Below are positions 53,835-64,000 of a stretch of DNA of 64,000 nucleotides, piece by piece. The position numbers and the translations under genes are program-made. Source of the DNA: an uncultured Acetatifactor sp. (lineage in GTDB: Bacteria > Bacillota > Clostridia > Lachnospirales > Lachnospiraceae). Under the pieces are notes generated by a model that searched no databases, had not been told where the DNA came from, and saw nothing but the letters and a program-made list of their open reading frames with translations. Numbering within the stretch: the stretch's first letter is position 1; each line of letters opens with the position of its first letter. The stretch covers positions 1 through 64,000 of the forward strand of contig CANRIP010000002.1 in assembly GCA_947630715.1 (NCBI GenBank), in the 5' to 3' direction.

Positions 53835-54111
53835 AAACCAGCTTTTTCCGGCTGGGTATTTTCAATAACCATATAGCAATAAAGAGGCAAAGTCTATCAT
53901 CAGACAGGGATCATACCAGAGAAAAATTGAAAAGTCTAGTGCCATATCTTGTTGAAATTCAAGGCAATTGCTGAAAAAAGAAATATTCAATGTTGCCCGA
54001 ATGGGTAGCAAGCTATCGATAGTTGCAATATAAAAAAGATGCTTTGCAATATGGATATGCAAAAAGGCATTTGAAGCAAATCATACGAGAATGCTGGGAA
54101 GGAAAAATGAA
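53835..54111. other. AT-rich spacer with possible degenerate coding remnants
   Basis: No intact gene. Fragments such as YKKDALQYGYAKRHLKQII appear in one frame near 54040 and are interrupted by stops; they may be a decayed gene of unknown type. The next gene has its ribosome site at 54096-54103. Confidence 0.35.
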
Positions 54112-57100
54112 ATGGTATACCAAATTTTTAATCATGAAATTCATTATGATACTGCCCGGATGAATTATTTTAAGATGATAGAATTTTATAAATCATTATA
54201 CCAAAAAGGGACTTCTGCTTTGAGGTCTGAATGGAAAAAAGCTGGGAACATAAATAATATATACAAAAATTATGAATCCGTCCTTGATGAGCAGATTGAT
54301 AATCTAGTAAATAGAAGTTATTTATATCTCAAAGATCTTGGAATTTATACTTATACGGGGAAGAATATTGGTGAAAGCAAAGATATCAAACTTGCTATCA
54401 ATGATATATACGATACTTTTGAACAACTGGTCATTATTCCATATGAAGATATAGAATTTTCAAAGGAAGAAGCTGCACAATATCGAGCGAATCGAAAAAA
54501 GAGTAGGGCAAAATACCATGGGTATGGCTGGGATATGAGTTCGAAACTTGTAAATTCGACGAAAGCCGCCGCTAAAAATGCAGTTGTAGGGCTAGGACAC
54601 TCTGCTGTGAACGCAGTAGGAAATCTTGCCAGCAGTGCAAGTGCCGCTTCCCAAAAGAATAGACTCTACAATGATTCTAGTATAGTAGATGCTTTATGCA
54701 AAAAATTAGGAGAGTTAGGCGACGAATTAGCGGAATTGTTTATATCTATTTGCGAGAATGAGTCAGATATTAGATTTAGTGTAGTTACAGAAGGGGAACT
54801 TTCCCAGGCAAAAGCGATTTCTGCTAATATTGTGGCAGGCGCGATGCCCCAAGATTCAATTTTGCAAAATGCTATAAAGAGCTTACAGATATGGCCCTAT
54901 AACAGAGAACTTCTTGAAATTATGATAAAAGAATTTGGCGATTCCAATAAAGAAGTAGAAACATTTGCTGCAGACTTCCAATTTGATATGAAAAGTTTAA
55001 AAAAGACGCTCCTGGATAGTAAGTACAAGAATGTCTTAAACCAACAATTTTCGATGGAACAGGAATTATTAGATAAGAAACAGGAAATTGCAGAATATGT
55101 TAAATGGTTAGGAATAGAAGATGAAACTTATCTTCCCAACTTACAGAAAAAGTGGGAAATGATAGATAAAAATCTCAGGACGGTAGAAGGCAAAGAATAT
55201 GCGACCCGGGAAGAAGCAAATGATGTCCGGGATGATATAAAATTGTTTGACCGGATGTTAGATTCGGTACGACTGGAAGATAAAAATTTATTAGACCCTG
55301 CAGTGTATCAAAAAACGTTTGACCAGGTAAAGGAAGCGGAATATAAAAACGTAGAATTTATAGAACATCTTTATGATCGTTTTGCTGATGAAACGAAGAA
55401 AATCGTTGAAACACAGCAAGTATATAAAAACATGACGGAAAGTGATACTTGCGATTCCATAAAGTCTATGTTTTATGAAGGCACTGTTGCTTCATATATC
55501 GGTAAACAAATTTTATTCGTAGATTATAAAACAGAATCAAAAAAGGTATACGAAGGGGGATTAAGGGGGGTTCCTTTGCTTTATGTCAACTGTAATAATT
55601 CAAGTAAATGGACAAAGGTATTTATAATTACTACACAGCAGGTTGCAGTAGCGACTCAAAGAATAAATAGAATTATGTCAATTCAAGATGTCTTTGAAAT
55701 AGAAAATATTGATAAAAAAATTTATTTAAATACAAAGACTAATAACAAAATATCACTCTTTAATATGAAGGGCTTAAATGGAGATGCGTTGGCTAGCTTT
55801 ATTACCTTAGTATCCAACATTATAAAAGCCCTGAATAAAATGGATGTTAATGTAATTGAACTCAAGCACAAAGATGCTCTTTATGCAGGAGAGGCTTTGG
55901 CATATACTGGGAATGGGCTTTTGGAAGTTAAAAATTCAAAAAGTATTATTTCTTGTATTTTAAAAGTATTTTCAATAAAAAAATTTTTTCATAAATTCAA
56001 ACAAACCTCAAACGTCTCTGTTGGGCTAGAAAATCGTCCAGATTTTCTGATCCCAGATAAGAATGCGGAATTACAGAAATTATATGATGATATAGATGAT
56101 CGGGATTTCTGTCTTATTGCACAAACAAGCGTCCGGGAAAGTAAAGCCGTTTCGTATATTGGAAAGCGGATTCGGTTTGCGGAATATAAATCAGAGAAGA
56201 AAAAGATTTTTGAAGATGGCCTGCGAGGTTTACCTCTGCTTTATATCAATTGTGATAATTCTGCAAAATGGAAAAAAATTTTTATAATTACAACTCAACA
56301 AGTGGCACTGCTAACCAAGAAGAAAAATACGATCATGGCAATCCAAGATGTTTCCGAAGTAAAATGTCAGGGGACAAAAGTGCTATTAAGGACTATTGAA
56401 AATACTGAAATCCCTCTTTGCAACATGATTGCAATGGAACAGAGCACACTGATTGATCTTGTTACCATTATAGACTGCCTTGTACAAACATTAAAAAAAG
56501 GAAACATTACTCTTGTTGAAAATAAATACGCCGGTCAATTGTATAGTGGTAATGCCTTAAGTTATAATACCCGCGAACCCTTGAAAATTAATAATTTAAG
56601 GCCTAATATACCTGGGATAGCATCCTTGGTGCTGTGTTTGATGTCCTTCATTGTTGAAATAGGAAGTGTTGCTCAAATTGTTCTTGCTTTAATAAGCGTG
56701 ATAGCCGGAATTGTGGGTTTTTTCTCTGCTCGGTGGAAAAAAATTACAGCTTTTATAGGGTGCTTATTGGGACTATTTCTTTTGCTGGGAGGTCTGGGTA
56801 CAAATATACCTTCTGATGTGTCCGATGACAATGCTCTGAGTACAGATGCTGCTATGATTTCTGACTTGTCGGATGTTGATACTCAAGATGCAGAGTCTAT
56901 CGTTTCCAGTTCAGAATCTGCACAGAGCGAACTTTTGCAAGCAGAGCCAACACAAACTCAAGATATATATACAAATATAGAGTTCCCAATTCTGGTACAG
57001 GCTTATACAGATGATTTAGATTTGTGCCCTGTCATGGTAACGGGCGAGACAGAAACGTCCTTAACTCTTGGAAGTTATGAACAGATGCTGGACAGTTGCA

Positions 57101-57609
57101 TTAATGATGGGGTAACAATGTATGCAAATCCATTAATGATAAACAGTTCAATCAGTACTGATACAAAATGGGATGCTTCACCTACGGAATGGTATGACTA
57201 TCTTTTGACATATGACCAATTTGTTTCCCTTGTCACATGGATGGCTGATCTTCATGAAATATTGGGTGAATCAGATATATATACATCTTCCTTTTCAGAA
57301 AAATATGATCGATTGGCAGGTGACTGGGTTTTTGACGATCAGAATATTTCTATCAGCATTTATTCTTATGATGTCGACATATGCGTCAGTTTCGTTGAGA
57401 TTGGTTCCATAACTGTTGCGGAAACGGCTGGGAATGTATATTATCTTGGAGAAAATGACAATTCGCTTTATGCTTTATGTGTAATGGAAAACAATGACGA
57501 AATACAGATTCGATTAGCAGACAACGGTACTTTTGAGGTTATTAGTTCTATGGATTCGAATATTAAAGTTGGTTCTGTTTTTGAGTGCTATGAGCATTAT
57601 GAATCATAA
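54112..57609 (+). CDS. Large membrane protein with two PH-like repeats and an extracytoplasmic domain
   Basis: A 1165-aa protein; ATG 54112 follows GGGAAGGA at a good distance. Residues 1-440 are cytoplasmic and helical, with a small-residue stretch (SSKLVNSTKAAAKNAVVG) near 145-190. Two homologous units follow (about 459-590 and 679-815): YIGKQILFVDYKTESKKVYE / YIGKRIRFAEYKSEKKKIFE, then LRGVPLLYVNCNNSSKW / LRGLPLLYINCDNSAKW and VFIITTQQVA / IFIITTQQVA. This resembles a bacterial PH-type fold. Two or three membrane helices lie at about 836-897, then an external C-terminus (to 1165) with low similarity to anything I know. The MORN gene follows 29 bp later. Function unknown. Confidence 0.72.
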   Translation: MVYQIFNHEIHYDTARMNYFKMIEFYKSLYQKGTSALRSEWKKAGNINNIYKNYESVLDEQIDNLVNRSYLYLKDLGIYTYTGKNIGESKDIKLAINDIYDTFEQLVIIPYEDIEFSKEEAAQYRANRKKSRAKYHGYGWDMSSKLVNSTKAAAKNAVVGLGHSAVNAVGNLASSASAASQKNRLYNDSSIVDALCKKLGELGDELAELFISICENESDIRFSVVTEGELSQAKAISANIVAGAMPQDSILQNAIKSLQIWPYNRELLEIMIKEFGDSNKEVETFAADFQFDMKSLKKTLLDSKYKNVLNQQFSMEQELLDKKQEIAEYVKWLGIEDETYLPNLQKKWEMIDKNLRTVEGKEYATREEANDVRDDIKLFDRMLDSVRLEDKNLLDPAVYQKTFDQVKEAEYKNVEFIEHLYDRFADETKKIVETQQVYKNMTESDTCDSIKSMFYEGTVASYIGKQILFVDYKTESKKVYEGGLRGVPLLYVNCNNSSKWTKVFIITTQQVAVATQRINRIMSIQDVFEIENIDKKIYLNTKTNNKISLFNMKGLNGDALASFITLVSNIIKALNKMDVNVIELKHKDALYAGEALAYTGNGLLEVKNSKSIISCILKVFSIKKFFHKFKQTSNVSVGLENRPDFLIPDKNAELQKLYDDIDDRDFCLIAQTSVRESKAVSYIGKRIRFAEYKSEKKKIFEDGLRGLPLLYINCDNSAKWKKIFIITTQQVALLTKKKNTIMAIQDVSEVKCQGTKVLLRTIENTEIPLCNMIAMEQSTLIDLVTIIDCLVQTLKKGNITLVENKYAGQLYSGNALSYNTREPLKINNLRPNIPGIASLVLCLMSFIVEIGSVAQIVLALISVIAGIVGFFSARWKKITAFIGCLLGLFLLLGGLGTNIPSDVSDDNALSTDAAMISDLSDVDTQDAESIVSSSESAQSELLQAEPTQTQDIYTNIEFPILVQAYTDDLDLCPVMVTGETETSLTLGSYEQMLDSCINDGVTMYANPLMINSSISTDTKWDASPTEWYDYLLTYDQFVSLVTWMADLHEILGESDIYTSSFSEKYDRLAGDWVFDDQNISISIYSYDVDICVSFVEIGSITVAETAGNVYYLGENDNSLYALCVMENNDEIQIRLADNGTFEVISSMDSNIKVGSVFECYEHYES

Positions 57610-57638
57610 AAAATAATAAAAGCGGGGGATTTTTAAAA

Positions 57639-58541
57639 ATGAAGAATATAATTTTAGGAATAGTAACTATATTTGCATTTTTTTCTTTTTTGGGAATCGG
57701 AAAGGAAAAACCAAGTTTTGATATCAATGAATATAACGATTATGGGATCAAATTGATAGACTTGTGCGATAAGGATAGTTATGAAGAAGATGGGAAGAAA
57801 TTGGCCGAATTAGTAAATCAATTTCTTGAAACTCCTGATCCGTGTTGCTTTATGGAAAGAAAAAACAAGCTTTTTGGAGGAATGGAATACAAACAGACGA
57901 TAGATACCACTGCGCATTATTATTATATTGGAGACATAAAGGATGGAAAACCGGATGGTCATGGTCTTTTATATTACGCGTATAACAGTAGTTTTTATAT
58001 TTATTATTTAGGAGAGTTTAAAAAAGGGGAAATTAAAGGATATGGAGTTCTTTTTCAAGAAGGTGTGAACCTGAATTATATTTCATATATGGGAGAAATT
58101 AAAAAGGAAGAAGAAGGAGAATTTGTCCCCGCGGATGGTCAACGAGTTATTCCCCACAGTTATTATGCTTATGGTGGTTTACAGGATAAATTGCTTTATG
58201 AGGATTCTGATGGGGATTCTGATGAACTGAATTTTGAGGACAATGATATAAAACAAGATTCGTTATATGGTGTATTATATCTTCCTCAATATGTCGGCGC
58301 GATTAAAAATGGAAAATATTCCGGTAAAGGAGATATGTATTCAACGGATGGAACTTTAATTTATTCTGGCTCGTTTAAGAAAAATTATTATTCGGGCAAA
58401 GGAACATTGTATTTTAAAGATGGTTCAATACAATATAAGGGTGAGTTTAAAAAAGGTAAATTTCATGGCAAAGGAACGTTATATAATCCGGACGGAACGA
58501 TCAAATATAAAGGTGAGTTTAAAAATGGAGATATAAAATAA
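57639..58541 (+). CDS. MORN-repeat protein with N-terminal membrane anchor
   Basis: A 300-aa protein with a signal or anchor segment at residues 3-20 (NIILGIVTIFAFFSFLGI). The rest is mostly MORN repeats: YYIGDIKDGKPDGHGLLYY, YLGEFKKGEIKGYGVLF, YVGAIKNGKYSGKGDMY, YSGSFKKNYYSGKGTLYF, YKGEFKKGKFHGKGTLYN, YKGEFKNGDIK. MORN repeats bind lipids or proteins, often as membrane scaffolds. It belongs with the preceding PH-repeat membrane protein, forming a likely membrane-associated pair. Confidence 0.85.
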   Translation: MKNIILGIVTIFAFFSFLGIGKEKPSFDINEYNDYGIKLIDLCDKDSYEEDGKKLAELVNQFLETPDPCCFMERKNKLFGGMEYKQTIDTTAHYYYIGDIKDGKPDGHGLLYYAYNSSFYIYYLGEFKKGEIKGYGVLFQEGVNLNYISYMGEIKKEEEGEFVPADGQRVIPHSYYAYGGLQDKLLYEDSDGDSDELNFEDNDIKQDSLYGVLYLPQYVGAIKNGKYSGKGDMYSTDGTLIYSGSFKKNYYSGKGTLYFKDGSIQYKGEFKKGKFHGKGTLYNPDGTIKYKGEFKNGDIK

Positions 58542-58981
58542 TTAACTCAACTAAAAATGCTTTACTGAGATTATGCAATTATTCTATTAATAAGGTCTTT
58601 TAGCATAATGATCAAAGTGAACCGGGATGGGATAAACAAATACTGCCATCTCGGTTCCTTTATATATTTATATCATCTTCGTGAACAAAACGAAAGTGTA
58701 ACTTATTTTGTGTAAACACAATAAATCAAGGGAAAATATTTTGATGTGTTGTTACAGACTAAACCATGGATGACAGATGCTTTGTCCCCGGGTTGTAGTG
58801 GTGAATCTTTTTGTGACATAACGAGTCCCCATTTTCTTGTGTGTTTAATAATATTTTATTAGCCTTTCCTGTTACAACTTGGTTACAGTACTTCAAGTTG
58901 AAAGAAAGTAATATATAAAAATATTGAAAATAATTTGAAGTTATGTTAATATAATAATGAAATTATAGAAGAAGTTTTGCA
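58542..58981 (+). other. Intergenic region with terminator-like hairpin and possible promoter
   Basis: Within 440 bp I see a stem GAACCGGGATGG/CCATCTCGGTTC (58619-58657) that ends the MORN unit, a near-palindrome TTATTTTGTGT..ACACAATAAAT (near 58710), and a TATAAT at about 58951 with TTGAAA/TTGAAG sequences upstream at poor spacing. The last may drive transcription into the left arm of the inverted repeat. No gene found. Confidence 0.5.
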
Positions 58982-59133
58982 GATAATTAAATGTTATCTG
59001 TTAGATTTGTAAAACATTATAAATTAAAACATTATAAATAAAGAATAATTCCTGATTATTGATGGTTGGTGGAAAAGATAGGATTATTTATTACTTCAAA
59101 GGATAATTGAGGATTATCGATAATTAGGAAATG
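58982..59133 (+). repeat. Left arm of a long inverted repeat (152 bp)
   Basis: Starts GATAATTAAATG and ends AATTAGGAAATG. Its reverse complement is found at 61782-61916, with five or so mismatches and small indels. This arm has one extra 15-bp tandem unit (AAAACATTATAAATT). It contains a perfect 12-bp palindrome ATTATCGATAAT and a related GATTATTGAT 60 bp away. It lies 44 bp before the start of the radical SAM gene. Confidence 0.93.
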
Positions 59134-59177
59134 TATGATAATTAACTATGCTACATAATTTAAAGGGTGGTAAGATT

Positions 59178-60260
59178 ATGGAATATTATATATATGTAAC
59201 AAATAAATGCAATTTAAACTGTTCTTATTGTTCTGTAATGTTGGAAAATAACAGCAGGCATTTACCAGACCAGCTATCATATAAGCTCGAAGATTTAAAA
59301 CACTTTGTCGATACTGTGCAGAGAACACGCCCAAAAGACGTAGCTCGCATTTATTTTTTTGGAGGAGAACCCACATTAGATTTTAATACTATTTATTCAA
59401 TAATTTTATTATTTAAAGAGGTCAAATCTTATAAAGTTGAATTTATTCTTCATACAAATGGTATTTTACTAAATTATTTACCAGAATATATAATAAAGTA
59501 TATCGATATCATATTTTTATCAATTAACTACGAAAAAATATATAATAGCGGCAAGATATCAGATTATTTTATTGGATTATTGCATAATATAAGTATAATA
59601 AAGAATAAAAAGCAAATTCCATTTATTGGACGCTTGACAATTTCGGAAGGCGCTAGTGTATATTCCGAATGTGCTTTGATTGGAGACTTTTTTGATTATG
59701 TATACTGGCAACTTGATAATCAAAAAAATTTAAGAGATATTATTGCATATAAAGAACAATATAAAAAAGAAATTTCGTTGCTGTTTGAATATTGGTTAAA
59801 ATTTTTTAAAGAGGGGGTAATATTAAGATATATTCCATTTTTAAGTATTGCGCAACATCTTCTTTATGAATATCCTATTCCGCAACATTTTTATTGTGGA
59901 TATGGGGATGATATGATCTATATTCAAACTGATGGTTCTTGCTATGGCTGTTGTGACGAAGTTGATTCCAAGCGACATTTTATTGGGGATATTTATAGTG
60001 GCATTGAGTTTCGTGATATGGAAATATCAAATGTTATATGTAAAAATTGTGAGGATTTGATAATATGCGGTGGACGCTGCGGAAGAATGCATAAAGATTT
60101 TGAACCAGAGCGGATAAAATATTATTGTGAAATGAATAAATTTACTTTTGAATTAGTGAGAAAACATCTTCCTGAAATAATTGAAAAGATAGGATCTTGT
60201 ACTTATTACAAGGAAATATTTTGTGATTCATTGATGGATTATACAGAACTGTTGCCATAG
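59178..60260 (+). CDS. Radical SAM enzyme with SPASM-like C-terminal cluster domain
   Basis: A 360-aa protein. The radical SAM Cys are C11, C15 and C18 in NKCNLNCSYCSV; the SAM-binding GGE motif is FFGGEPTLDF. The C-terminus has CGYGDDMIYIQTDGSCYGCC and ICKNCEDLIICGGRCGR, a Cys pattern like the SPASM/twitch auxiliary iron-sulfur domains of peptide-modifying enzymes. A substrate peptide is expected, but only a very small frame in the repeat arm is a candidate. AAGGGTGG seven bases upstream sets the ATG at 59178. Its stop lies in a perfect hairpin shared with the convergent TIR gene. Confidence 0.84.
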   Translation: MEYYIYVTNKCNLNCSYCSVMLENNSRHLPDQLSYKLEDLKHFVDTVQRTRPKDVARIYFFGGEPTLDFNTIYSIILLFKEVKSYKVEFILHTNGILLNYLPEYIIKYIDIIFLSINYEKIYNSGKISDYFIGLLHNISIIKNKKQIPFIGRLTISEGASVYSECALIGDFFDYVYWQLDNQKNLRDIIAYKEQYKKEISLLFEYWLKFFKEGVILRYIPFLSIAQHLLYEYPIPQHFYCGYGDDMIYIQTDGSCYGCCDEVDSKRHFIGDIYSGIEFRDMEISNVICKNCEDLIICGGRCGRMHKDFEPERIKYYCEMNKFTFELVRKHLPEIIEKIGSCTYYKEIFCDSLMDYTELLP

Positions 60261-60285
60261 AGTTTTTCTATGGCAACAATAAAAT
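60251..60285. terminator. Bidirectional terminator between the two convergent cassette genes
   Basis: GTTGCCATAGA (60251-60261) and TCTATGGCAAC (60267-60277), perfect 11-bp stem, 5-nt T loop. It contains the radical SAM stop codon. AATAAAATTT follows on the plus strand. Confidence 0.75.
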
Positions 60286-61746
60286 TTAATGCAACGCGTC
60301 AAAATAGTCTCGATATTCCTCATATTTATGTTTGCATAAGTTTATAAGTAATTTCCCCTTTGAGCCAAATAATCTTAATTCGGGCGGGATCAAGGTTAAA
60401 GTATACACATCTGTATTTGAAGTTGTTGAATTATGTTTTTTCATGCCCATTATTTTACATAACTTTTCGCCTTGTTTTGTAGATGCCTCAGCTAAAATTT
60501 GGCTAAAATAAATTTCTCTTTGCTGTGCAAGACCTATTACCACATCAATAACGGCATTATATAATTCAAGAAATGCATTAGTATTTTGATATTGGGGATG
60601 AATTGCAACAGATGCAACATATAAAATATATATTCCAGGTGCTTCGTATTGAACAATTGAATCAGTTGTAAATTCTTTATCCATAAAATCACCAGATAAT
60701 ATAAGATTATAGGTATCTTCCGTAATGGGCAATAGCGTAAAATAACCAACTATTTTTTTGGTTGCACAATCTCTTATTGCTATGTACGTATAATTATTGT
60801 AGTCATACCATTCAATGGCTGTTTCAACTGATGCGATTAAATCCTCTCTTAAAACTAAATAATCTATTTCATCAGTTTCTAAGAAATCATTGTGTTTCAT
60901 TTCGCCAGGGTATATAATTTCAAAATTATAATTATTAGGTAGTGTGTTGTATTTAATTGCTAAATACCAACGCATAATGGATACAAGAGCCTTGTTTATT
61001 AATATTTGAACGTCTTGGTTGGACTGTTCTCCATCTAAGTGATAAATATAGGAAAAATATTCAGAAATATTAATACTTGCTACCTTATTAATTACTGCCA
61101 ACTGACCAGCATAATCCGTTGTCTCTGTAATTTCATTTATCCCAAAGTATTTACCTATATCACATGCTATAGCTGATAATATCTTTTTTGCACAAAAAAT
61201 AAGATACGCAGGGTATTGTTCCATGATATCAAAATATTCCTTCATTTTCATGCAAACAATATCAGCTTGTATATTCTCATATGAATTTAGTTTTTTATAC
61301 AGAGAAAATAAAGTTTCTTTTATTAATAATGATTCATTTTCTTGTTTAGCTTTATTTAATGATTCTTCGAGACCTAAGATAATGGTATCGAAATTTTTAT
61401 CTTTTGCATTCAAATATTTAATATTTCCTAAAATTTGAATAAGCTGTAAATACTCTTCTGTAGCTATGTCATATATGATAGGAACTATTTTAGCTTTTTG
61501 AAATATGGAATATTGACCTGATTCAAAGTAAACCCATTTACTTTGAAAAAAATTATGAGTAACAATAAGGATAAGTATAAAAGATTTTTTTAGTCCTTCT
61601 TGCACTTCTTTATTAATGTTGTCTCCATATGAGATGTTATTTTTATCATACCATACACTAAATTGTTTTTGTTCCAGTTGATTTACCAACTCATCTACAA
61701 TTATTTCTTTGTCTAAAGACGAATGCGAAATAAAAAAATCGTACAT
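60286..61746 (-). CDS. TIR domain - GNAT acetyltransferase fusion
   Basis: A 486-aa protein. The TIR domain covers 1-130: DFFISHSSLDKEI, VWYDKNNISYGDNINKEVQEGLKKS, and SKWVYFESGQY, whose Glu75 is at the place of the catalytic Glu of TIR NADases. A helical linker of about 150 residues follows. The C-terminal part (about 290-465) has the GNAT fold: YTYIAIRDCATKKIVGYFTL, then ILYVASVAIHPQYQ and a closing strand after KIMGMKKHN. The acetyl-CoA loop usually QGxGxG/A reads QNTNAF, so CoA binding is uncertain. TIR effectors degrade NAD or signal in bacterial immunity. GGGGGAT precedes the ATG. Confidence 0.78.
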   Translation of the reverse strand: MYDFFISHSSLDKEIIVDELVNQLEQKQFSVWYDKNNISYGDNINKEVQEGLKKSFILILIVTHNFFQSKWVYFESGQYSIFQKAKIVPIIYDIATEEYLQLIQILGNIKYLNAKDKNFDTIILGLEESLNKAKQENESLLIKETLFSLYKKLNSYENIQADIVCMKMKEYFDIMEQYPAYLIFCAKKILSAIACDIGKYFGINEITETTDYAGQLAVINKVASINISEYFSYIYHLDGEQSNQDVQILINKALVSIMRWYLAIKYNTLPNNYNFEIIYPGEMKHNDFLETDEIDYLVLREDLIASVETAIEWYDYNNYTYIAIRDCATKKIVGYFTLLPITEDTYNLILSGDFMDKEFTTDSIVQYEAPGIYILYVASVAIHPQYQNTNAFLELYNAVIDVVIGLAQQREIYFSQILAEASTKQGEKLCKIMGMKKHNSTTSNTDVYTLTLIPPELRLFGSKGKLLINLCKHKYEEYRDYFDALH

Positions 61747-61781
61747 TTGCTATCCCCCATCTGTTTAAAACTGGATTAAAT

Positions 61782-61916
61782 CATTTCCTAATTATCGATA
61801 ATCCCCAAGTATCCTTTGAAGTAATAAATAATCCTATCTTTCCCCAACTATCAATAATCAGGAATTATTCTTTATTTATAATGTATTACAAATCTAACAG
61901 ATAACATTTAATTATC
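61782..61916 (-). repeat. Right arm of the long inverted repeat (135 bp)
   Basis: Reverse complement of 58982-59133 over its full length apart from the missing 15-bp unit, two one-base gaps and about four substitutions. It starts 36 bp upstream of the TIR-GNAT start codon. The two arms therefore form matching leaders for two unrelated, convergent genes. Confidence 0.93.
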
Positions 61917-61929
61917 CCTCAAATAAAAT

Positions 61930-61979
61930 AGCGGCCTGGCAGGCTGGTGTTTTCGGCTGCCGAGTGCCGCTATAAATTT
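61930..61979. terminator. GC-rich hairpin between the inverted repeat and the recombinase
   Basis: AGCGGC (61930-61935) pairs with GCCGCT (61966-61971) with an inner GGCAG/CTGCC stem. T-rich flanks exist on both sides, so it may stop transcription in either direction, including that coming from the recombinase toward the TIR gene. Confidence 0.6.
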
Positions 61980-62900
61980 TTATATATGAAAATCTTTTCT
62001 GGGGTGTTTTTCTGTTAGAATATTCCTTTGCTTTGACATAGCCACATGGGTATAGATTTCTGTAATATGAATTGAGCTGTGGCCCAGCATTTCTTGAATA
62101 TAACGTATGTCGACGTCTGCTTCCAACAGACTGGTGGCAAAGGTGTGGCGGAACATGTGAGGCGTGATATGTAATTCTATGGCGGCAAGGGCAGCATATT
62201 TGTTGATCATCCGTCTGACGCTTTGATCGGACAACGCACGGCCGTTTTGGTTTACAAAAAAGAAATTGTTATTTTGAATTTGCGGGAAAAAAGTTCTTTC
62301 ATAATCTTCCAATACATGAATAACGTCATCGTTTCCAATTTGCAGCCGGCGTTCCTTCGCTCCTTTTCCATAGATGAGAATGCTCTGTTCCTGTAAATTG
62401 ATATCTTCTTTTTTGAGAGAGCAGAGTTCGGAAATTCTGATTCCCGTAGCAAAAAGCAGTTCAATTACGGCAGCGTCCCGTAACGCGTTTTTTTGCTGGT
62501 ATGCTGTGGGCGCTTCGCTGCGTTGCCTGTATATCACTGACAAAAGTGATTCAATGGTGTGTAGGGGAATGACTCTTGGCAGGGTGATTGGTTCGCGGAA
62601 TTTTAGCTGCATTTTATTAAAGGGATTCCGCTCGATGATATCTCTGTATTCAAAATAATGAAAAAGCGCTTTGACAGAGGCAATTTTCCGTTTCACAGTC
62701 TTCGCTTTATAATGTTGATGCAAAGCAGAAACATACTGCTCTAAGATTGCCACATCGATTTGCGCCACATGGGAAACAGGGATACAGTTCACAAACTGGC
62801 TTAGATCGATTCGATACGCTTTTAATGTTTTGCGGTCAAGTCTTTTCTGATTTTGACAGTAGTCCAAATAATTGTCAATGAGTGTTGGTAAATCGTTCAT
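61980..62900 (-). CDS. Tyrosine recombinase (XerC/D-like integrase)
   Basis: A 306-aa recombinase. The SAM-like core-binding domain covers 1-95 (TLIDNYLDYCQNQKRLDRKTLKAYRIDL); the catalytic domain follows. Active-site residues are R155 (GIRISE), K182 (GKGAKERR), H248 and R251 (HMFRHT), H274 (MLGHSS) and Y283 (EIYTHV), all in place. GGAGG nine bases upstream fixes the start. It lies 64 bp from the right arm of the inverted repeat and is transcribed toward it, the usual position for the recombinase of an invertible element. It could instead integrate the whole island. Confidence 0.88.
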   Translation of the reverse strand: MNDLPTLIDNYLDYCQNQKRLDRKTLKAYRIDLSQFVNCIPVSHVAQIDVAILEQYVSALHQHYKAKTVKRKIASVKALFHYFEYRDIIERNPFNKMQLKFREPITLPRVIPLHTIESLLSVIYRQRSEAPTAYQQKNALRDAAVIELLFATGIRISELCSLKKEDINLQEQSILIYGKGAKERRLQIGNDDVIHVLEDYERTFFPQIQNNNFFFVNQNGRALSDQSVRRMINKYAALAAIELHITPHMFRHTFATSLLEADVDIRYIQEMLGHSSIHITEIYTHVAMSKQRNILTEKHPRKDFHI

Positions 62901-63202: not shown

Positions 63203-63466
63203 ATGGACAAAGACTATGAAAACAGGGAGGTGTTCTTCTCTGTGAACAGGTTTCCCAACGAAAAAAAGAGAAAGCTGCATTATGTGATACATAATCCTAA
63301 TACGGTGGAAGAAACCGCCAAGGTACTGTTGGAGATATTGATACAGGCAAATGCTGGAAAGGTGGAGAGGGGACTGCAACAATCATTAAAATCACTGGGT
63401 TTGACAGAATCCAATATACCACGCGGCAACACCATGGAATCATATAGCAGGGAGAGATCTGTATGA
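63203..63466 (+). CDS. Small protein upstream of the serine recombinase
   Basis: An 87-aa soluble protein: FSVNRFPNEKKRKLHYVIHNPNTVEETAKVLLEILIQANAGKVERGLQQSLKSLG. It overlaps the recombinase start by four bases (ATGA), so they are translationally coupled. It may be an accessory or directionality factor, but I do not recognise a family. The ribosome site is weak. Confidence 0.55.
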   Translation: MDKDYENREVFFSVNRFPNEKKRKLHYVIHNPNTVEETAKVLLEILIQANAGKVERGLQQSLKSLGLTESNIPRGNTMESYSRERSV

Positions 63467-64000
63467 ATATCGCCGCCTATTGTCGCGTTTCCACCGATAA
63501 AACCGACCAGCTCAACAGCCTGGAAACGCAAAAGCAGTTTTTTGCGGAATATACGGAACGCACGGGGGACAACCTTGTGCGTCTCTACGCCGATGAGGGC
63601 ATATCCGGCACCAAAATCAAGAACCGCAGAGAATTCCTGCGCATGATGTCCGATGCGGAGCGCGGACTGTTTGAGCTGGTAGTGGTGAAGGATATTTCCC
63701 GTTTTGCCAGAAATACGGTGGATTTGCTGCAAAATATCCGCAGACTGAAGTCGCTTGGCATTGAAACGCAGTTTTTGACCGCCAATATGACCAGCATGGG
63801 GAACAGTGAGTTTGTGCTGACGATCTTCGGCGCGCTGGCTCAGGAAGAAAGCGCCAATACATCCAAGCGAATCAAGTTCGGAAAAAAAGTGAACGCCGAA
63901 AAAGGGCGTGTCCCCAATTTTGTCTACGGCTATGACAAGACGGTTGGCGATTATTACCATCTGGCTATCAATTCCCGCGAAGCAGGGATCGTCCGGCAGA
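63463..64000 (+). CDS. Large serine recombinase, N-terminal part (continues past the window)
   Basis: The first 179 residues of a resolvase/invertase-type recombinase. The catalytic Ser is in AAYCRVSTDKTDQ near residue 10; LYADEGISGTKIKNRREFLRMM, VVVKDISRFARN (conserved Arg) and FGALAQEESANTSKRIKFG follow. The recombinase domain starts near residue 160 (GRVPNFVYGYDKT). Such proteins move Tn4451/Tn1549-related and other clostridial integrative elements. GGGAGAG precedes the ATG. The gene has GC-rich codons unlike the island to its left, so it belongs to a different element. Confidence 0.9.
   Translation, partial: MNIAAYCRVSTDKTDQLNSLETQKQFFAEYTERTGDNLVRLYADEGISGTKIKNRREFLRMMSDAERGLFELVVVKDISRFARNTVDLLQNIRRLKSLGIETQFLTANMTSMGNSEFVLTIFGALAQEESANTSKRIKFGKKVNAEKGRVPNFVYGYDKTVGDYYHLAINSREAGIVRQ

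Follow-up and report, generated by a model that had tools for sequence, protein, structure and literature searches.

Architecture of the locus

The window (the whole stretch of DNA analysed, 64,000 nucleotides of contig CANRIP010000002.1 from an uncultured Acetatifactor sp.) carries near its right end two convergent genes between inverted arms, with a tyrosine recombinase gene just outside. The features are as follows.

58924..58952, + strand: promoter-like sequence TTGAAA-17-TAATAT, beyond the left arm and directed at the radical SAM gene (shuffle p 0.037)
58982..59133, + strand: left inverted arm, 5' leader of the radical SAM gene (BLAST and complementarity comparison)
58982..58998, no strand: left core dyad GATAATTAAATGTTATC, proposed crossover site (exact 17-nt inverted match to the right core)
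59102..59118, no strand: second dyad GATAATTGAGGATTATC inside the left arm (motif scan of the genome)
59178..60260, + strand: radical SAM/SPASM protein gene (ORF readable from 59148; CxxxCxxC and 7-Cys SPASM pattern)
60286..61746, − strand: gene of a TIR domain protein with a GNAT-like C-terminal half (Pfam, homologue alignment)
61782..61916, − strand: right inverted arm, 5' leader of the TIR-GNAT gene (BLAST and complementarity comparison)
61900..61916, no strand: right core dyad, inverted copy of 58982-58998
61920..61976 (approximate), − strand: terminator-like hairpin with T-rich tail TTTATTTG (−23.1 kcal/mol, no shuffle control)
61980..62900, − strand: XerC/D-like tyrosine recombinase gene, proposed invertase (Pfam, NCBIfam, homologue comparison)

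The layout proposed in the initial annotation proved largely accurate. The inverted arms do enclose 2.65 kb, their inner ends being 2648 nt apart, and the segment holds exactly two long ORFs in convergent order (59148-60260, +; 60286-61746, −), the remaining listed ORFs between the arms being short and overlapping these two. Each arm is indeed an immediate 5' leader, stopping 44 nt (radical SAM) or 35 nt (TIR-GNAT) ahead of the start codon. These distances follow from the likely radical SAM start, ATG 59178, from which the four homologues (4/4) align at MEYY/MEYF, the starts of the window and G533 proteins having been set by hand. The recombinase is complete, as claimed, at a measured distance of 63 nt from the right arm instead of 64 bp. 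An arm identity of about 95 percent had also been put forward; it describes the three gapless pieces of the inverted match (63, 50 and 46 nt, with complementarities of 95, 92 and 96%) and not the whole arms, whose BLAST identity is 86% because they differ by 17 nt in length. Searching the genome with the arms (E ≤ 0.001) returned two matches only, the arms themselves. Since the arm, ORF, recombinase and Pfam checks all held, the leaders and terminal repeats are real, far beyond chance. Two other readings were considered. As transposon ends, the arms showed no target duplication obvious by eye and had no further copy in the genome; for an RNA element, Rfam gave nothing at E ≤ 0.1. Genes for a 1172-aa protein that matches no Pfam family and then for a MORN-repeat protein (window 54091-58541) precede the cassette on its promoter side. 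Just beyond the tyrosine recombinase, a large serine recombinase-like ORF (500 aa, identified by eye; window 63463-64000 and L166:664-2166) is possibly the trace of another mobile element.

The proposed identities of the enclosed genes are clear for the radical SAM and TIR parts and weak for the GNAT part. The radical SAM protein matches Pfam Radical_SAM (3.6e-12); its best NCBIfam matches, TIGR04084 (3.6e-43) and PapB (1.8e-19), both lie under the curated cut-off. Its CxxxCxxC and 7-Cys SPASM patterns are conserved in 4/4 homologues. The other protein matches Pfam TIR_2 (2.8e-17), and its W71 and E75, part of a WxxxE motif, are likewise conserved in 4/4 homologues. Its C-terminal half weakly resembles GNAT acetyltransferases: three of the four C-terminal halves match Acetyltransf_1 (best 2.3e-4), the window protein reaching just 0.11, and a search of solved structures for the fold of this half gave no match better than E 0.7. 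In L004 (G071:C31) a separate protein of 227 aa, related to the GNAT-like half at 33% identity, is encoded between RNase R-like and sensor-kinase-like genes (named by eye).

The recombinase matches Pfam Phage_integrase (7.4e-44). It is XerC/D-like and falls below the NCBIfam equivalog cut-offs for the housekeeping proteins, scoring 244.1 bits for XerC (335.15 needed) and 236.8 for XerD (329.6 needed). R155, K179, H248, R251, H274 and Y283, the catalytic residues of such enzymes, are invariant between the window and G533 recombinases.

The 17-bp dyad and its link to the recombinase

The outer end of each arm bears a 17-bp dyad of the pattern GATAA-N7-TTATC, and the 7-bp spacer TTAAATG is identical in both cores. 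XerC/D half-sites are ATAA and TTAT, which the dyad arms resemble. In the 2.5-Mb genome of the window this pattern occurs at three sites, all at this locus (reversed control, 0). Besides the two cores, these include the second dyad of the left arm, whose right-arm counterpart GATACTTGGGGATTATC has one arm mismatch and a different spacer; a second dyad is also present at both ends of L136 and L150, 43-44 nt inward (1 mismatch). Such second dyads are perhaps accessory recombinase sites. The dyad near the outer end is the sole element common to the arms of the first three loci (window, G302, G533), as judged by eye. A MAFFT alignment of four leaders left the dyads unaligned; they were aligned by eye first and tested afterwards by motif counts.

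These counts were made in 68 recombinase loci from 61 genomes, comprising the window, G533, 28 of 33 other places from a first recombinase search (matches in 30/295 genomes, E ≤ 1e-60) and 38 of 39 new places from a second (41/319 genomes, E ≤ 1e-95). G238, G098, G086 (partial), G132 (internal stop) and G184 (residues 17-295) were dropped from the first set and G1411 (partial) from the second, and the weaker G253 was kept. An exact dyad lies between −20 and +330 bp from the recombinase match end in 34/68 loci; none of 19 permuted control motifs does so in more than one locus (0-1 each). When spacer lengths of 3-12 were scanned in the 68 loci, 7 alone counted, save for one match at 9. In 16/68 loci an exact inverted partner follows 0.6-6 kb further on (controls, 0). 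Exact same-spacer pairs located anywhere in the loci, 0.7-7 kb apart, are inverted in 19 loci and direct in one. A 3'-side dyad is missing from 27/68 loci, even with one mismatch allowed; ten of these 27 have an exact dyad near the 5' side and 17 have neither.

In L076, L083, L088, L096, L097, L099, L133, L141, L158, L163 and L164 an exact dyad sits near the recombinase on its 5' side, and L076 has one on the 3' side as well. In L088 the 5'-side dyad is half of an exact inverted pair enclosing two convergent ORFs. L096 (G303:C37) carries three dyads upstream of the recombinase, with spacer TTAGCTA throughout and in direct order, which would predict deletion instead of inversion.

The long arms had been envisaged as the recombination sites. 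The evidence favours the dyad: the repeat of L092, L100, L139 and L157 is limited to a dyad of 17-19 bp, without common leader, so that the 17-bp element, rather than the long arm, is the likely crossover site. The same four loci bear on a static reading of the repeats, namely that two co-regulated genes have duplicated leaders and that the recombinase plays no part. Every arm is a gene's leader, as this reading would have it, and long arms recur in L128, L131 and L136. However, it has to face the loci without common leader, a dyad that accompanies the recombinase in half of the loci, and gene orientations that vary between species, and we regard it as highly implausible.

Cargo and orientation of sister cassettes

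The pair of radical SAM and TIR-GNAT genes was found in three other genomes (G302, G533 and G1334). It is rarely met in broad samples. The full-length radical SAM protein was recovered from 2/392 genomes of the order (E ≤ 1e-30) and full-length TIR-GNAT from 2/391 genomes of the class (E ≤ 1e-20), the own genome included in both. A draw from the phylum gave TIR-GNAT matches in 2/398 genomes, the own one and G968 (TIR part only). Among 99 relatives 15 matched at E ≤ 0.001, full length in the own genome alone and by single domains in the rest. Two family searches added no full-length relative, with matches in 2/40 (G533 and a TIR-only match) and 1/48 (G302). No full-length TIR-GNAT relative was detected in a viral contig collection or among four matching phage records (0/4), and none of 128 matching plasmid records covers 80% of the protein. 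For the radical SAM protein in viral contigs, one scan found nothing and another a single remote match (32%). In a genome contig collection one scan again found nothing, another giving the contig of G302 and a TIR-only match. These collection scans can miss relatives because they are built on short peptide patterns; G533 and G1334 were missed by one of them.

In G302 the convergent pair lies inside 53-nt perfect inverted arms; no close recombinase was found in this assembly, in which 73 nt of contig follow the arm. The genome of G533, which belongs to another family and is assembled as one contig, has the pair flanked by perfect arms of 48 nt and, next to them, a recombinase with 54% identity to that of the window. 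The G1334 pair (L145) came from the recombinase search, and an extra gene for a 174-aa protein without Pfam match (L145:4526-5047) stands there between the TIR-GNAT and radical SAM genes. The gene proximal to the recombinase is the TIR gene in the window and the radical SAM gene in G533, the window and L145 being oriented one way and G533 the opposite way. The comparison with relatives called for at the outset thus yields homologous pairs between inverted sites next to homologous recombinases, in both orientations. A single orientation throughout, or the same arms around other genes without a recombinase, which the initial annotation had named as evidence against inversion, was not encountered where the data allowed a test, with G302 as a partial exception.

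If one mismatch is tolerated in the dyad arms and one in their pairing, closed cassettes of 1.7-6.1 kb can be delimited at 22 loci. The enclosed genes are convergent in all 22, and 15 cassettes have exactly two ORFs of at least 75 aa. Both ends of a cassette bear the same spacer (partly by selection), and 21 different spacers occur over the 22, since L128 and L139 have one in common with different cargo. The cargo was annotated by Pfam for 30 proteins and otherwise by all-against-all homology, which also served to group the pairs; several of the hits to TPR, ATP-grasp, Mrr and STAND fall short of the Pfam cut-offs, and Pfam recognised neither the L157 genes nor one gene in each of L095, L145 and L153. 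Recurring combinations are TIR-GNAT/radical SAM (4 loci), TIR/ThsA-like (3 loci, plus L085, cut by a contig end), ATP-grasp/TPR (3 loci), SHMT-like/TPR and carbamoyltransferase/AAA-Mrr-like (2 loci each, one orientation only), ATP-grasp-radical SAM fusion/pentapeptide (2 loci, plus L077, cut), and D-Ala-ligase-like/TIR and TPR (2 loci). In about 14/22 cassettes a gene of immune type by resemblance (TIR, TPR, NTPase) stands opposite one that encodes an enzyme (radical SAM, ATP-grasp, SHMT-like, carbamoyltransferase); in 3/22 the facing genes are TIR and ThsA-like. With the recombinase as reference, both orientations occur within three of the groups: 2 to 1 for TIR-GNAT/radical SAM (window and L145 versus G533), 2 to 2 for TIR/ThsA (L090 and L094 versus L146 and L085, one cut by a contig end) and 2 to 1 for ATP-grasp/TPR (L092 and L159 versus L152). 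A stop codon interrupts the recombinase gene adjoining the ThsA-like gene in L085 (G192:C53), where the switch may therefore be locked; the last 77 residues of this recombinase alone entered the recombinase tree.

In that tree the window recombinase groups with those of L074 and L128, the latter with carbamoyltransferase-type cargo, and the recombinases of the other TIR-GNAT/radical SAM cassettes (L145, G533) are more distant. On this phylogeny, recombinase and cargo do not have one shared history. We regard the window locus as one of a family of cassettes with one recombinase family and interchangeable cargo. Such exchange could also mean that the recombinase captures two-gene cassettes in the manner of an integron, inversion being a by-product, and the spacer common to the unlike cassettes L128 and L139 would fit. 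Yet capture by excision requires direct sites, whereas same-spacer dyads are nearly always inverted, and an unsystematic look at the fetched stretches noticed no multi-cassette array. We consider integron-like capture improbable.

Predicted switching and relation to known systems

Taken together, these data make it probable that the locus is a site-specific DNA inversion switch, phase-variable in an either/or manner and belonging to a family with interchangeable cargo. The invertible cassette suspected from the first reading is thus supported by a dyad that is tied to the recombinase family and confined, in this genome, to the locus, and by a promoter-like sequence outside one end. The adjacent tyrosine recombinase would bind the dyads at the outer arm ends, and strand exchange within the identical spacer would turn the 2.9-kb segment round. 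The promoter outside on the left would then read into whichever gene occupies the left end, that is, the radical SAM gene in the sequenced state, with the roles of this gene and TIR-GNAT swapped by inversion. Arms, dyads, recombinase, conserved pairs and opposite orientations across species are given by the sequence itself, and we infer from them inversion in one clone, promoter and terminator action, either/or expression and a role in defence. The contig of the window carries one orientation, and opposite orientations across species give no date for an inversion.

A trace of ongoing inversion might be left in the assemblies. Contigs end within 300 bp of the recombinase on its 3' side in 16/68 loci and on its 5' side in 1/68, and among 13 loci with both a dyad (1 mismatch) and a contig end within 400 bp, five end 2-11 bp past the dyad. 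This pattern would fit an assembly fork caused by mixed orientations, a sign of active inversion; it is suggestive, as long repeats break assemblies too. At the contig end of L094, 37 nt of the recombinase side are repeated after the far core. They may stem from reads of the other orientation or be a true repeat, and were left out of the counts because either meaning is possible.

Promoters were assessed by a simple score against shuffles. At p ≤ 0.05, 13/43 flanks qualify where about 2 would be expected; the two flanks of a cassette never do so together, and in 9/22 cassettes no flank does. The signal of L145 falls inside the recombinase gene. Those of G533 (p 0.01) and G302 (p 0.004) face TIR-GNAT, and the other flank of G302 also reaches p 0.05. 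A simpler scan listed the window promoter as well, in a region just mildly enriched (36 promoter-like sequences versus 26.4 expected, sd 5.1), for which reason single promoters are weak evidence. The terminator-like hairpin of the window, missed by the simpler scan on this strand, stands between the recombinase and the right core. Lying behind both the recombinase and this hairpin, the TIR-GNAT gene is probably off in the sequenced orientation.

A less strict control is conceivable, in which both genes are always on, one from the outside promoter and the other by read-through from the recombinase, so that inversion swaps levels or ties one gene to the recombinase. In 6/22 cassettes the core starts 7-10 nt past the recombinase match end, too near for a terminator or a promoter of its own to fit in between; because of this closeness the recombinase-proximal gene may be in the recombinase operon, and in these six the switch may change levels instead of acting as on/off. 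The cargo also includes TIR/ThsA pairs, of which both partners are thought to be needed. Constant expression is countered by the window hairpin (−23 kcal/mol) between the recombinase and the TIR gene, and by hairpins of −13 kcal/mol or stronger after the recombinase in 7 of the 16 cassettes with room (no shuffle control), the far flanks of L146 and L162 bearing comparable ones. We judge it rather unlikely and retain either/or inversion as the preferred reading.

The phase-variable defences known so far mainly alter the specificity of restriction-modification systems or surface structures. If the proposed inversion is true, it would extend stochastic switching to TIR/NAD-type and NTPase-type immunity. 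It would also raise the testable question of why apparent partners of one system share a promoter serving one gene at a time, and the defined 17-bp site makes such switches easily findable in genomes. As a tentative and possible extension, a widespread family of flip-flop cassettes might place both members of an immune system, including Thoeris-like TIR/ThsA, under a control that lets only one be expressed at a time. Both partners would be present only briefly after a flip, so that the recombinase would set the armed fraction of the population, and cargo would be exchanged between loci. In titles and abstract openings of the papers listed by searches of the open-access literature, preprints aside, we found no description of such invertible immune-type cassettes, nor of this gene pair as a switch, in line with the initial annotation, which knew of none. 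One article states that recombinases often adjoin anti-phage genes, with a role in defence that is unknown (PMC12529663). The proposed recombination mechanism is of a known kind, and it is the cargo and the either/or layout that were not found described.

Compared with Thoeris (ThsA/ThsB), the window cassette likewise has a TIR protein. It differs in having no ThsA beside it, in the fusion of TIR to a GNAT-like half, and in the pairing with a radical SAM enzyme; ThsB models match the TIR part alone. ThsA-like proteins are encoded at four sister loci, of which three also have a TIR gene and one is truncated by its contig end. The sister cassettes L090, L094 and L146 do combine a ThsA-like SIR2-STALD protein (PADLOC ThsA 1.4e-103, 2e-84 and 1.1e-60) with a TIR protein (Pfam STALD, SIR2_2, TIR_2), as in Thoeris. 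The phage Mu G and P1 C segments share with our locus, as proposed here, an outside promoter, two opposed gene sets and an adjoining invertase. In these phages a serine invertase acts on tail-fibre genes, whereas here the neighbour is a tyrosine recombinase and the genes are of immune type or encode enzymes; the serine recombinase of the window is unrelated and further out. In pneumococcal hsdS loci, inversion reshuffles gene pieces, whereas here whole genes would swap at a promoter, and the ORF list and Pfam gave no hsdS gene in the segment. An adjacent tyrosine recombinase (CreX/PsrA) and inverted repeats are common to both (PMC7096588). The RecV switches of Clostridioides difficile, the subject of PMC5903667, also rely on inversion by a tyrosine recombinase in Firmicutes. 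There, RecV inverts regulatory switches such as the flagellar one; at our locus, by contrast, the genes would invert and the promoter-like sequence would stay in place. With these tyrosine-recombinase switches the window locus shares inverted sites with an identical spacer and a nearby recombinase endowed with the catalytic residues.
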